This document shows positions 3,582-10,075 of a stretch of DNA of 64,000 nt, in pieces. The translations under genes were made by a program, and so were the position numbers. Origin of the DNA: Gemmata palustris (GTDB taxonomy: Bacteria > Planctomycetota > Planctomycetia > Gemmatales > Gemmataceae); the NCBI RefSeq assembly GCF_017939745.1, contig NZ_JAGKQQ010000002.1, positions 744,001-808,000 of the forward strand. Reading direction: 5' to 3'. Each line of letters starts with the position of its first letter. Within the stretch, counting starts at the first letter, position 1. The notes beneath the pieces are model-generated. The model was given only the letters and a program-made list of their open reading frames with translations. It was not told the origin of the DNA and did no database searches.

Positions 3582-4535
3582 ATGACCATCACGATCCTGT
3601 TTCTCGCGGTCTGCTTCGTGGCTTTCACGAACGGGGCCAACGCCAATTTTAAGGGCGTCGCCTCGTTGTACGGCAGCGGAACGACGACGCTCCGCACGGC
3701 GGCGCTCTGGGGAACGGCGGCGACGTTCGCGGGTTCGATCGCGGCGCTGTTCCTGGCCGGGGGCCTGCTCGCCTCGTTCCGCGGGCGCGGGATCGTCCCG
3801 GACGAGCTGGTCGCGTCCCGGGAGTTCGTTTGCGCCGTGGCCGCCGGCGGAGCGCTCACGAGCTTCCTGGCCACTCGTTTCGGCTTCCCGGTCTCCACCA
3901 CACACGCCCTGGTGGGCGCGCTGGCGGGTGCGGGGTTGGCCGGTAGCGGGGAGGTGCGGTTCGCCGCGCTGGGGAAGCTGTTCTTTTATCCCCTGTTTTT
4001 TAGCCCGGTCGTCGCGGCGGTGGCGGGCGCCGGAGCATTTCTGATCCTCAAGTCGGTGCGCCTGATGCCGGACCGCCGCACGCCGGCGCTGGACGTGTTG
4101 CACTTTCTGAGTACCGGTGCCGCGAGTTTCGCCCGGGGCCTCAACGACACACCGAAGATGGCCGCGCTGATGCTCGCCGTGCCCGGATTGGAAGTCCACT
4201 GGGGGGTTCTGATCGTCGCTCTGGCCGTCGCGATGGGCGGGGTGCTCGACGTCGATCGGGTCGCGGAAACGCTCGGCAAGAAAGTCACGGGGATGAACCC
4301 CGGTCAGGGCTTCGCCGCGAGTTTGGTTACGGCCGGGTTGGTAACGACGGCGAGCTTGCACAGCTTGCCCGTGAGCACGACCCACGTCAGCGTGGGCTCC
4401 CTATTTGGAATGGGCGTGGCCTCGCGGCAGGTACACTGGCGGAAGGCGGGCGAGATCCTGCTCGCGTGGGTCAGCACGGTGCCCTGCGGCGCGCTCCTCG
4501 CGGCACTGGCATACGGGCTGATGATCCGATTTTAG
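3582..4535 (+). CDS. PiT-family anion permease (phosphate or sulfate)
   Basis: A 317-residue polytopic inner-membrane protein of the PHO4/PiT family. The two inverted PiT signatures are present: FTNGANANFKGVASLYGS near residue 15 and FARGLNDTPKMAAL near 183, each followed by an STTH motif (FPVSTTHALVG near 102 and LPVSTTHVSVG near 263). PiT proteins usually move inorganic phosphate with H+ or Na+, but the Bacillus CysP branch carries sulfate. The coupling to an exported thiosulfate sulfurtransferase makes sulfate or thiosulfate a reasonable alternative. The length is somewhat short for PitA (about 500) and nearer to the compact CysP-like members. Confidence 0.85.
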   Translation: MTITILFLAVCFVAFTNGANANFKGVASLYGSGTTTLRTAALWGTAATFAGSIAALFLAGGLLASFRGRGIVPDELVASREFVCAVAAGGALTSFLATRFGFPVSTTHALVGALAGAGLAGSGEVRFAALGKLFFYPLFFSPVVAAVAGAGAFLILKSVRLMPDRRTPALDVLHFLSTGAASFARGLNDTPKMAALMLAVPGLEVHWGVLIVALAVAMGGVLDVDRVAETLGKKVTGMNPGQGFAASLVTAGLVTTASLHSLPVSTTHVSVGSLFGMGVASRQVHWRKAGEILLAWVSTVPCGALLAALAYGLMIRF

Positions 4536-4693
4536 ATCGCGGGCACCAAGCGGGTCGTGGGGCGCGCAAAAATCGGAGGCTTCCCGGAAGAGGGAAGACG
4601 TGTAGCGTCTGCCGGCTCCGAGCGGGCCGCCCGCCCGTCCCGAGGACGCAGATACGAGCACTCACGGAACGGACTAATTCGTATCAACGAAAC

Positions 4694-5893: not shown

Positions 5894-6700
5894 GTACAAT
5901 CAAGTTAGTATCGACTTGATCTAATATAGTTCTCATGCGTTGCTAGCAGCCGTGATAAATGCGCTACGATATGAGAGCCGATGTCAAAGATCGTATCGCT
6001 GCATATTCTCGCGTGATATTCTTCGAGCAGCGGGCGCGGGCCGCGGCCACTCGGGTCGCCGCGCACGGAACGTGCTCGCACATTGTGTGCCGCGGCCCCG
6101 CTCATCGCGCCTTCATGTCACCGAGTCAATAATTTGCGCGTTAAGAAAAGGGCCGTCGCCCTTGAGCTATCTCGCCCCGTGGAAGTTCGGGCGAAGTGCA
6201 TCACGGGAAAGTACGGAATCGGCATTCCAATTCCGCAGATCGAGTCGCGGTTGGCTCAACGGGTCGATCGGGTACGCGACCGCGATCCCGGGACCGGTAT
6301 TGAACCGCGGTTGGGGTGCTCGGTGGTGCGGCCCGTCGCTGGCGCCACTGGCGAACAATTACTGCGGACCCGAGTAGGGCGGCCGAAAGAAGGCGCCGCG
6401 CCACGAGAACCGTTTCAACGAAACGGCTACGGGAGATGGGGCAAGCGGGTGTAGTGAGTGAGGCGCGGGCCTTGGCCTCAAGACTTATACGGCCCTGCGG
6501 TCACACGGACGGTCTTTAGCAGCCGCGCCCTTCGGGGCCGTTCCCGCACTGTCCGGGGTAACAACGGAACAGTCACGCATCCGACTGCCAATTAGTAGAT
6601 TAAGATCGCAACACAGACGGAATAGAGAAAAATTTGATAGTTCGACCACGTGTTTCCGGTGAAGCGCTTGCCGAGCAAGTGCTTGTGGTGTGAAATGTGA

Positions 6701-6738
6701 GCGCCGGGAGCGGGCCGAACGATGTCCGCTCCCGGCGC
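6701..6738 (+). other. Leader hairpin upstream of the triple-repeat protein
   Basis: A perfect 13-bp stem (6701-6713 with 6726-6738; arm gcgccgggagcgg) encloses a 12-base loop and ends 58 bases before the start codon at 6797. If transcription begins upstream, it would sit in the 5' leader and could be an mRNA-stabilising element or attenuator. No U-tract follows. Confidence 0.4.
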
Positions 6739-6796: not shown

Positions 6797-9700
6797 ATGC
6801 CACGCCCGCTCTCCTGTTGGCCGGTGCCCGCCCGTTGGCTGCTGTCGGCCGTCGCCGTGGTGCTCGTGGGGCCGCTGCACGCCGCCCCGCTCTCCCAACC
6901 CAAGGGCGACGCAAAGCCGGCCGAACTACCGGCCGTCGCGCCCGAATTCGACAAGGTGCCGCTCTTCGACCTATCGAAGGGGGCCGGACTACCCAGTTAC
7001 CTGAAGGCGTCGCCGACCATGCTCGGGGACGCCAGCGGGCTGCGCGGCGGCGAGGCCCGGGTCACGACCCCCGACCTGGGTAGCAAGGATTTCACCTTCG
7101 ACGTCCTGTTCCGGTTCAACGACGGGGAGAAATCGATCGCCCTGATCGGAGTGACCGCGGCCGCACCCGTGACCCGGGCGGCCGACGAGGGCGTTTCTTC
7201 GGCCGTTCACAGCCCCGGGCTCGGCGGCTACACGACCCTCGGCAGCACCGGCGGGACGGAGTTCCGACTGGGGACGTTCAAGACGGACGGCCCGCACCTG
7301 TACCGGATCGACAAGAAGGGGGACGCGCTGACGGTGGCAATCGGCGAGTGGAAGGACGGCAAGTTCAGCCCGTACTCCGTCAAGGCCCTCACCATCTCGA
7401 AGGACACCCCGGTTCTCAAATCGGGCGGGGTTCCGTTCTTCGGTAACGAGGCCACGTTCCTGGGGGTGCGCCTGGCCGTAGACGGCAAAGTGGTCGATCC
7501 CGGGAAGCCGGCCCCGCCCCCGGCCGACCTGTCGAAGATCCCGCTCACTCCGCTCGGCGGGGCCAATCCGCTCCCGAGCTACCTCGGCACCGACGCGGCC
7601 GGGGTCGCGGACAAGGACGGGCTCCGCCTCGACAACTCCGCGTACCGGACGAAGACGACCGGGCTCGTCGAAAAGGACTTCGTCTTCGACGTGCGGTTCC
7701 GGTTCCAGGACGAGGAGCAGAGCATTTTCACGATCGGGCTCGCCGGCGCGAAGGGAGAAGGCATCAGCTCGCGGGTCCACGGACCCGGGCACGGCGGGTA
7801 CGCAACCCTGGCCATCACCGGACAGGAGGAGTTCCGGTTGGGGGCGTTCAAGACGGCCGGCCCGCACACCTTCCGAATCGAGAAGCGCGGCCCGACGCTG
7901 ACGCTCGCCATCGGCACAGAAAAGGACGGGACGTTTACTCCAATTGTAACGAAAACGATCCCGCGACTCACGGCGACGGCCCCGTGTCTGACCCCGAAAG
8001 AGTGTGCGGTGTTCGTGTCCGGGAACGGGGGCAAGTTGGAGGCCGTGCGCTTCGTGGTCAACGGAGAAGCGCACGGCGGGAACGTGGCCGGCGGCTCGAA
8101 GGGTGGCACCGAGCCCAGGCCGACCGACCCCAAGCGCCCGGCCGCGGCCGCCGATAACGGTATCGAGGGCCGGGAGCACCTGATCCGGCTGACCGGGGCG
8201 CCGCTCCCGTCGTACCTCGGTGCGCACCCCGGCCTCACCTTTGAACCCGCGGGCGGACTGGTGCTTCACGACCGCCTGATTCGCACCGCAGCGGCGGACT
8301 TCGCCACCAAGGACTTCACCTTCGACGTGGTGTTCCGATTCAAAGAGAAGGAACAAGCGATCTGCCTGGTCGGGCTCGGGGCCGCGGAGCGGCGGCCCGG
8401 GGGCGGCATGGACCTGAAGGACAGCGTGTGCTCCCGGCTCCACGGCCCCGGGCACGGGGGGTACGGAACGGTGAGCGTTTCCGGACAAGAGGAGCGCCCG
8501 CTCGGCGCGTACAAGTCGGCCGGCCCGCACATGTTCCGGCTCCGGAAGAAGGGCAACGTACTCACGATGGCCGTGTGCGTCGAGTTCAAGGGTACGTTTA
8601 CCGCCCACATCGAGCGGTCGATCACTGACCTGAAGGCGGCTGCCCCGTTCCTGACCAAATCGAACAGTTGGCTCTTCATCGGCGCGGACGGGGTGGTGGA
8701 GTCGGTTCGACTGGTGGTCGATAGCGAACCGATCGAGTCCCGGGATCTGGCACTGAACCTCCCGGCCCGCGTGGTCGCCGGTCGGTCACTGGGACAATCT
8801 CTGGTCGCGGCCCCGGGGGGCAAGAAGTTCGCGGTGGCGTCCGGTCCGAAGGGGCTCACCGTCAGCACCGAGGGCAAGGTCTCCTGGGTGCCGACCGCCG
8901 AACAACTCGGGCGCCACGAGGTCCGGATCAACGTCGCCGGTCCGAAGGACACGGCCCAAGCGATTCTCGCGGTCGAAGTCGTCTCCGCCGAGGACGCGGC
9001 CGCCGTCAACGGGAACTTGGCCCGGATCGACAGCCTGTACCAACTACCGCTGGCCGCGGGGCCGACCCACATCGGTCCCGGGCTCGACGGGAAATCCCTC
9101 CTTCTGGTGGAGGGGAACCGGTTGCGGCGACTGACCGGCGGGGGGATCACGGTGAAGGAGGAGATCCGCCTGCCAGCGCGCTACGAGCGGCTGTTCGAGC
9201 GGGCCGATTACTTCGTCGGGCTGTCGGACGAGAAGAAGGCCCTGCACGTGATCGACAAGAAGACGCTGAAGGTTCGGCGGAGCGTCAAGATGGATTACCC
9301 GGCCCGGACCGACCTGGCCCCGCACCCGACCCGGGCACTCTGCTACGTGTGCGTCGTGACCGGCGGGGAGGGTCCGCCGGCCCGGGTTCTGATCGTCGAA
9401 GAGGACACCGGGGACGTGCAGGAGCCGGCCGGTCTGTTCGGCTCCTGGGCCGTGGTGTCGCCCGACGGGCGCAACCTCTACGCCGGCTACCGGGAACTGT
9501 ACCAGAAGGGCGCGCGCCTGCTGTTCAACCCCGACCGGATCCACGTCGTCCCGGAGTACGGGACGTTCGACGCCCTGCTGGTCTACGACATTACCCGCGC
9601 CAAGCCGGTGATGCGGCACCTCAAGGAGGAGCCGGGCGGGAACGGAACCGGGCTGGTGCTGTCGCCGGACGGGAAGCGCCTGACGTACCTGTCGCACACC

Positions 9701-10066
9701 GGGTACCCGATTTCTTCCGACCAGATCCCCGCGTGGTCGCCCGCGTCCCTGGACAAGCGCCCGATCGGGTACTCGACCAAGGCGGACAAGGCGTCGACCC
9801 TCTGGGTCGCGTACCACCCGGTACTGGACATTGCCGCGGCGCCGGCCAAAGCCGGGGCGGTGTGCTACGACCGCGAGACGGGCGAGGTCGAACCGAAGCG
9901 GGCGGACCTCACGTACCCGTTCCTCGGGGAACCGGCGGTGAGCCGGGTGTTCTTTTCGCCCGACGGTCGGCACCTGCTGTTGGAGTGTGAGGAGAACGGG
10001 AAGCGGTCGCTGCGCCGGGTCCGGCTCAACCTGACGGCCGCAGAGGTGGCCCGGTTGCCGAAGTGA
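6797..10066 (+). CDS. Large secreted protein: three repeated jelly-roll-like modules, Ig-like domain, beta-propeller
   Basis: A 1089-residue exported protein with a signal peptide (about 1-31, ending LHAA-P). Three copies of a module of about 185 residues follow, at roughly 55-235, 247-427 and 462-646. Each starts with an LPSYL segment and contains DFTFDVLFRF-type, VHGPGHGGY-type and FKTAGPH-type blocks. Residues about 650-730 look like an Ig/cadherin-type fold (SGPKGLTVSTEGKVSWVP), and about 740-1089 contains VSPDGRNLYAGY and LSPDGKRLTYLSH blades typical of WD40/YVTN propellers. The repeats could be carbohydrate-binding, but no known family name fits. ATG 6797 is preferred over an in-frame upstream codon because of GAGGAA at 6785. 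It ends nine bases from the convergent BatD gene. Confidence 0.75.
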   Translation: MPRPLSCWPVPARWLLSAVAVVLVGPLHAAPLSQPKGDAKPAELPAVAPEFDKVPLFDLSKGAGLPSYLKASPTMLGDASGLRGGEARVTTPDLGSKDFTFDVLFRFNDGEKSIALIGVTAAAPVTRAADEGVSSAVHSPGLGGYTTLGSTGGTEFRLGTFKTDGPHLYRIDKKGDALTVAIGEWKDGKFSPYSVKALTISKDTPVLKSGGVPFFGNEATFLGVRLAVDGKVVDPGKPAPPPADLSKIPLTPLGGANPLPSYLGTDAAGVADKDGLRLDNSAYRTKTTGLVEKDFVFDVRFRFQDEEQSIFTIGLAGAKGEGISSRVHGPGHGGYATLAITGQEEFRLGAFKTAGPHTFRIEKRGPTLTLAIGTEKDGTFTPIVTKTIPRLTATAPCLTPKECAVFVSGNGGKLEAVRFVVNGEAHGGNVAGGSKGGTEPRPTDPKRPAAAADNGIEGREHLIRLTGAPLPSYLGAHPGLTFEPAGGLVLHDRLIRTAAADFATKDFTFDVVFRFKEKEQAICLVGLGAAERRPGGGMDLKDSVCSRLHGPGHGGYGTVSVSGQEERPLGAYKSAGPHMFRLRKKGNVLTMAVCVEFKGTFTAHIERSITDLKAAAPFLTKSNSWLFIGADGVVESVRLVVDSEPIESRDLALNLPARVVAGRSLGQSLVAAPGGKKFAVASGPKGLTVSTEGKVSWVPTAEQLGRHEVRINVAGPKDTAQAILAVEVVSAEDAAAVNGNLARIDSLYQLPLAAGPTHIGPGLDGKSLLLVEGNRLRRLTGGGITVKEEIRLPARYERLFERADYFVGLSDEKKALHVIDKKTLKVRRSVKMDYPARTDLAPHPTRALCYVCVVTGGEGPPARVLIVEEDTGDVQEPAGLFGSWAVVSPDGRNLYAGYRELYQKGARLLFNPDRIHVVPEYGTFDALLVYDITRAKPVMRHLKEEPGGNGTGLVLSPDGKRLTYLSHTGYPISSDQIPAWSPASLDKRPIGYSTKADKASTLWVAYHPVLDIAAAPAKAGAVCYDRETGEVEPKRADLTYPFLGEPAVSRVFFSPDGRHLLLECEENGKRSLRRVRLNLTAAEVARLPK

Positions 10067-10075
10067 ACCGCAGGG

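Follow-up and report, generated by a model that had tools for sequence, protein, structure and literature searches.

The 64,000-nucleotide stretch of the Gemmata palustris genome analyzed here (the window; contig NZ_JAGKQQ010000002.1, forward-strand positions 744,001 to 808,000) carries a plus-strand gene for a protein in which one module of ∼180 residues, predicted to adopt a concanavalin A (ConA)-like fold, occurs three times. The open reading frame (6722 through 10066) encodes 1,114 residues counted from its first ATG. We prefer the ATG at 6797, the start also chosen in the initial annotation, because it is preceded by "gagga" and directly followed by a signal-peptide-like stretch; the gene then spans 6797 through 10066 and encodes 1,089 residues, and a start at 6722 would add 25 residues ahead of the signal peptide. 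From the N terminus, the protein comprises a Sec-type signal peptide assigned by eye (6797 through 6883), module copies 1 (6944 through 7507) and 2 (7523 through 8086), a linker rich in Gly, Pro, Lys, and Ala (8087 through 8188), module copy 3 (8189 to ∼8722), a putative immunoglobulin (Ig)-like domain of the He_PIG type (8741 through 9016, with approximate bounds), and a predicted β-propeller of the WD40/YVTN-like kind (9044 through 10063, with an approximate start). NCBIfam gave no match to the protein, and Rfam gave none within positions 4400 through 10300.

The initial annotation had described the N-terminal part as three copies of one module, and alignment confirms it: pairwise identities in a MAFFT alignment are 45% (copies 1 and 2), 38% (1 and 3), and 46% (2 and 3), with BLASTP E values of 5e-43, 3e-33, and 2e-47 for the same pairs. 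Local alignment scores of 340, 271, and 358 compare with maxima of 55, 53, and 47 over 200 shuffles of one partner in each pair. Four sequence blocks had been listed as common to the copies. LPSYL is indeed present in all three; the others recur with variants, DFTFDVLFRF being exact in copy 1 and different at one or two positions in copies 2 and 3, GPGHGGY exact in two copies and diverged to SPGLGGY in copy 1, and FKTAGPH exact in copy 2, FKTDGPH in copy 1, and YKSAGPH in copy 3.

The module had not been recognised as a named family, and Pfam and NCBIfam searches bear this out. The best Pfam rows were ILEI (E = 0.11) for a set of 8 module sequences and Receptor_IA-2 (E = 0.054) and HU-CCDC81_bac_1 (E = 0.059) for a set of 20; a sequence search of the PDB returned a beta-lactamase (0.76), YddE (0.81), and, over 30 residues, a designed NTF2 protein (E = 0.013). 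None was accepted, each being weak, short, or unrelated, and membership of a named Pfam, NCBIfam, or PDB sequence family was rejected, nothing convincing having matched. LamG and DUF1080 had been singled out as described domains that might cover the module in full. Neither does so by sequence: LamG (PF13385 and PF02210) and, with hmmscan, DUF1080 (PF06439) gave no row among the 8 (E ≤ 1) or 20 (E ≤ 0.1) module sequences, and the 9 PF13385 and 24 DUF1080 places in the same genome include none in this gene. When the module family was compared profile to profile with 15 of these 24 DUF1080 places and 8 of the 9 LamG_3 places, the nearest family was DUF1080, a weak link (hhalign probability 27%, P = 6.6e-4; three shuffled targets gave P = 0.31, 0.67, and 0.95); LamG_3 reached 0.1%, and DUF1080 against LamG_3 reached 70%. 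A description of the module was not found in the literature, judged on titles and abstract openings, and one may still exist. By sequence, then, the family appears unnamed; its predicted fold is a known one.

Copy 2 was modeled with AlphaFold2 using an alignment of 10 rows, all of them window copies or relatives found in the locus search. The model is almost entirely composed of β-strands and has a mean predicted local distance difference test (pLDDT) score of 86.8 and a predicted template modeling (TM) score (pTM) of 0.86. Foldseek returned 145 PDB matches at E ≤ 0.001, headed by the carbohydrate-recognition domains of VIP36, ERGIC-53, and Emp47 (E = 3e-6; TM score by query ∼0.6), with a legume lectin, PL7 alginate lyases, a galectin, and CBM66 in lower rows. 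With VIA-align, 737 of 999 chains reached Z ≥ 8; the best was ERGIC-53 (4ygb_A; Z = 15.4, root-mean-square deviation [rmsd] 3.2, 164 of 188 residues), alongside the ConA-like part of the GH43 beta-xylosidase 5z5d (Z = 15.0) and the seed lectin 2gmp_A (Z = 14.6), at identities of 7 to 12%. This list speaks for the PDB families it contains, DUF1080 structures, for example, being absent from it. As modeled, copy 2 is a ConA-like two-sheet jelly roll over the whole domain, and copy 1 would share this fold by homology; the ConA-like superfamily also includes LamG and DUF1080. The model resembles L-type lectins, with the top rows tied with GH43 domains within one unit of Z, and we therefore assign a ConA-like jelly roll and favor no subfamily. 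The structure prediction and fold search suggested in the initial annotation thus recover a known fold, so the fold is not new.

The three-part architecture proposed there, of modules, Ig-like domain, and propeller, holds for the modules and the propeller and more weakly for the Ig-like part. One PD40 stretch (9638 through 9694) exceeds the cut-off (21.8 vs. 20.9 bits), and a propeller profile built from six homologues matches structures of WD40, surface-layer, and YncE proteins (2ymu, whole-sequence E = 4.7e-11 without a single significant stretch; 1l0q, E = 3e-7 with two stretches); at the profile level, these matches identify the propeller. He_PIG scores on the Ig-like part (14.3 to 17.4 bits, best E = 0.0062) lie below the Pfam cut-off of 24, and the same part has low-scoring matches (E = 1.7e-4 to 9.6e-4) to stretches, Ig-like by eye, in five genomes of the family. 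In the orthologue from genome G010, the one other genome of the genus in which the gene was found, He_PIG and PD40 (17.8 bits) both fall under the Pfam cut-off. A single-sequence structure prediction of the Ig-like part and propeller (pLDDT 38.8) was not used. Propeller homologues at 42% identity in genomes G006 and G094 come without the module, which was not found in either genome with all candidates scored. Domain shuffling is therefore the best account of how the protein arose.

Relatives of the module appear to be sparse across Planctomycetota. All tallies from the group searches are lower bounds, with at most the best 8 candidates per genome scored, and all include the genome of the window itself. 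The profile search from the three copies that had been suggested finds relatives in at least 4 of 392 genomes of the phylum. Adding relatives to the profile raises this to at least 11 of 397 genomes of the class, and a 20-row profile to at least 13 of 397; a seven-row profile without window sequence finds at least 8 of 392 in the phylum. The last recovers the window copies (copy 3, E = 2.7e-33; copy 2, 1.8e-23; copy 1, 4.7e-14), copy 3 being the best scorer of the three with wider-family profiles; this is a consistency check, not an independent discovery, because its rows came from window-containing profiles. A second module gene was not found in the same genome with copy 1 as query (14 of 14 candidates scored) or with profiles (best 8 of 32 and best 8 of 70). 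Two pattern scans of viral contigs confirmed none of their 88 and 33 stretches, and a tblastn search of 72,556 plasmid records with copy 3 as query returned nothing at E ≤ 0.01; a viral or plasmid origin was rejected, no viral contig or plasmid record having matched. Corresponding scans of genome contigs confirmed 0 of 151 stretches in the first round and 5 of 188 in the second, all from planctomycete metagenome-assembled genomes (MAGs) by title. Because such contig scans use narrow peptide patterns, relatives may exist in other phyla; the whole-genome searches were confined to this one.

The collected set comprises 34 modules in 27 open reading frames, in which the module occurs singly, paired, or tripled across several kinds of exported-looking protein. 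Three copies with Ig-like part and propeller characterize the window protein and its G010 orthologue; an 844-residue Rubripirellula MAG protein (L050) has three tandem copies behind SHD1, and L018 (genome G400) has two, followed by a tail that is dockerin-like by eye and gives no Pfam dockerin. The module is joined to trypsin-like proteases in L051 (Trypsin_2, 93.5 bits by Pfam) and, by eye, in L019, L052, and L053; to CsgG-like domains in L030 (41.4 bits by Pfam) and, by eye, in L033, L034, L040, and L045; and to FecR-like domains in L062 (23.5 bits against a cut-off of 24) and, by eye, in L036, L042, L047, L048, L065, and L066, Pfam detecting no FecR in L036. Pfam also places LamG_3 beside the module in L037 (G087) and GH2 C-terminal of it in L060 (G292), an outer family member. 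L059 ends in a PEP-CTERM tail (TIGR02595, 24.1 bits; cut-off 16), as L061 does by eye; such tails are reported to correlate with exopolysaccharide producers (PMC1569441). By eye, L017 is lipoprotein-like and L022 a membrane protein, and L054 is a fragment. The FecR, GH2, LamG, and PEP-CTERM group matches the seed profile with lower scores (E = 1e-9 to 2e-21; L059, 1.1e-24) and, by this measure, makes up the outer rim of the family. Genome G743 alone encodes the four FecR-like proteins L036, L042, L047, and L048, each with the module at the C-terminal place. Two further outer members fall outside the 27-frame count (L121 in G691 and L122 in G685); both have PEP-CTERM-like tails and dockerin-like stretches by eye, and in L122 the dockerin-like stretch apparently lies inside the module.

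A tree built from the 34 modules groups all six copies of the window species and G010 in a single clade (support 100/99), in which each window copy pairs with its counterpart from G010; the triplication therefore took place within this module lineage, before the two species split. The L018 pair forms a separate clade (99/96), which argues for an independent doubling. The branching of the three L050 copies is not settled in the tree, and the positions of L022 (long branch) and L059 (odd composition) are unsure. The G010 orthologue is 95% identical with its frame intact, and the ratio of nonsynonymous to synonymous substitution (dN/dS; Nei-Gojobori method, own script) between the two species is 0.159 over 1,088 codons. 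By part, the ratio is 0.129, 0.107, and 0.162 for copies 1 to 3, 0.264 for the Ig-like part, and 0.140 for the propeller; the linker, at 0.454, is highest outside the signal peptide, whose 30 codons give 1.245 on hardly any changes. The low ratios show that each folded part is under purifying selection. Separately, synonymous divergence from G010 is 0.019 in the signal peptide and 0.056 in copy 1 (together 6797 through 7507), against 0.15 to 0.20 in copies 2 and 3 and the propeller, as if the 5′ part had been recently exchanged or were constrained at the DNA level.

Several residues are near-invariant (at least 30 of 34 modules). In the numbering of the copy 2 model, G72 is present in all 34; F53, H115, and G136 in 33; and R118, G92, G107, and G113 in 32. 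H115 and R118, together with K121 (24 of 34) and glycines, form the strand signature GxHxxRxxKxG. Of 23 core modules, 17 have Asp at position 131 and 17 have it at position 141, and the six core modules lacking Asp 131 are the window and G010 copies; window copies 1, 2, and 3 have Gly, Gly, and Cys at 131 and Tyr, Ile, and His at 141, with Asp 135 retained in copies 1 and 2. Subfamilies may therefore differ in the ligand or metal they use.

The gene is accessory: among 18 other genomes of the genus, not all of them complete, it was found in one. Close species also differ by rearrangement of its surroundings. Positions 4658 through 10070 match G010 at 6.557 to 6.563 Mb, with a gap at 6214 through 6564. 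From 10073 on, in the BatD cluster, the match in G010 lies near 0.634 Mb; this sequence has a match in G009 too, where the right-side sequence alone matched and the gene was not found. A synteny breakpoint thus falls at 10067 through 10076, between the stop codon and the BatD gene, the G010 matches of the two sides being ∼5.9 Mb apart on the contig. The rhodanese and PHO4 flank on the left has its G010 matches at 2.68 and 4.88 Mb, and for the sequence right of the G010 gene the matches in the window genome and in G009 are all short; the block is thus flanked differently on both sides in the two species. Upstream, a DUF1559 pilin-like gene with an N-terminal methylation motif (4785 through 5807, minus strand) overlaps a 409-residue plus-strand frame (4557 through 5783) that has no family and is probably not a gene; the 5′ end of the DUF1559 gene (5583 through 5763) has further matches at 81% in G010 and G009, as expected of a multicopy family. 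Downstream, the minus strand (10079 through 17781) encodes BatD, TPR, VWA, and VWA proteins, followed by MoxR-type AAA and HlyD-like proteins; the AAA protein also scores over the cut-off for bpMoxR of MoxR-vWA-beta-propeller ternary systems. The rhodanese/PHO4 and BatD-TPR-VWA-VWA/MoxR neighbors were not used to assign function because they do not lie beside the G010 orthologue.

On balance, we lean toward an exported, multivalent (three-headed) binding protein whose ligands are probably glycans or other polymers outside the cell. Of the surface binding protein with three ligand sites suggested in the initial annotation, binding is made likely by the predicted fold, and both the surface location and the three sites are putative. 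The by-eye signal peptide, the lectin-like predicted fold, the repeated copies, and the partners of the relatives are what lead us to a secreted or periplasmic multivalent binder, and it is from these that we infer export, ligand class, functional trivalency, and a periplasmic or extracellular site. The signal peptide would direct the protein across the inner membrane; the three ConA-like jelly rolls, tandem copies of one ancestral module, would act as three binding heads, similar or related, whose likeliest ligand, judged by fold and context, is a glycan or some other polymer outside the cell; the Ig-like domain would serve as a spacer and the propeller as a second interaction platform. The occurrence of relatives in exported-looking proteins (trypsin-like, CsgG-like, FecR-like, GH2, PEP-CTERM) is consistent with this, as is tandem multiplication elsewhere, in the L018 pair and the L050 triple. 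Several observations weigh on the other side. No surface anchor is seen in the window protein, and none of the ten neighboring frames scanned is a polysaccharide-utilisation gene. The near-invariant residues are mostly of the fold-building kind, none of them mapped as a ligand residue, and a putative metal site in the acidic loop, if any, is probably not retained in the window copies, whose loop Asp residues are partly missing. Furthermore, ConA-like folds also serve as enzymes and protein-protein modules. More tentatively, the module may represent an undescribed Planctomycetota glycan-recognition family, an interchangeable head on exported proteases and CsgG-like, FecR-like, and GH2 proteins that was multiplied independently at least twice, with the window protein as its trivalent, propeller-bearing form.

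The foremost competing explanation, possible although we doubt it, is that the modules are protein-protein or structural envelope modules, a LamG-like scaffolding that binds no glycan. CsgG-like and FecR-like domains are envelope assembly and signaling parts, so the fusions to them fit this idea, and a propeller with an Ig domain is a typical protein-binding scaffold; a scan of the whole L050 protein gave a sub-threshold Laminin_G_2 match in its third copy (E = 0.0035, 18.3 bits; cut-off 22.9), which did not recur with the copy on its own. Against it, the top-scoring folds are carbohydrate-recognition domains first, though a shared fold need not mean a shared ligand. We consider it unlikely that the modules are enzymes, akin to DUF1080 3-keto-glycoside hydrolases or PL7-type lyases, and the three copies three catalytic units. 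Alginate lyases do occur among the fold matches (PL7C chains, Foldseek E = 5e-5; PA1167, 1vav_A, Z = 14.0, rmsd 2.7 over 152 residues), His and Arg are near-invariant (33 and 32 of 34), and the weak profile link is to DUF1080. However, the module has no Pfam enzyme family match, several copies are fused C-terminally to proteases, as accessory domains are, and the His lies in a GxHxxR strand resembling the WHH strand of LamG, where the His is structural. A decaying or chance fusion without function is very improbable: the gene's presence in a single other genome of the genus and its place at a rearrangement breakpoint might suggest it, but two species keep an intact frame, 95% identical between them, and dN/dS is low overall and 0.11 to 0.16 per module.

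Planctomycetes have many large exported proteins without annotation. A shuffled ∼180-residue module that links otherwise unrelated exported-looking proteins can be defined as a family model from the alignments made here, and three natural copies side by side pose a testable ligand question. Because the fold is ordinary, annotation and that question are the gain, rather than a new kind of system.

Among known systems, L-type lectins (ERGIC-53, VIP36, Emp46/47, and legume lectins) share the predicted jelly roll over almost all of the module (Z = 15.4 to 13.8), at 8 to 12% identity in the VIA-align rows. The C-terminal ConA-like domain of GH43 beta-xylosidase has the same fold (5z5d residues 311 through 510, 165 residues aligned) at 7% identity, and the module has no Pfam match to such a family. 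DUF1080 (3keto-disac_hyd) differs in giving no hmmscan match; it shares the superfamily, is abundant in this genome, and has the weak profile link. LamG likewise differs, the window copies having neither a sequence match nor an appreciable profile score; nevertheless, a LamG_3 domain (85.7 bits) directly precedes the module in L037, and the module also sits behind FecR-like domains, FecR and LamG being domains known to pair. Finally, the Rubripirellula protein L050 differs in being joined to SHD1 and in giving no Pfam propeller or Ig match, but like the window protein it repeats a module of this family three times in tandem.

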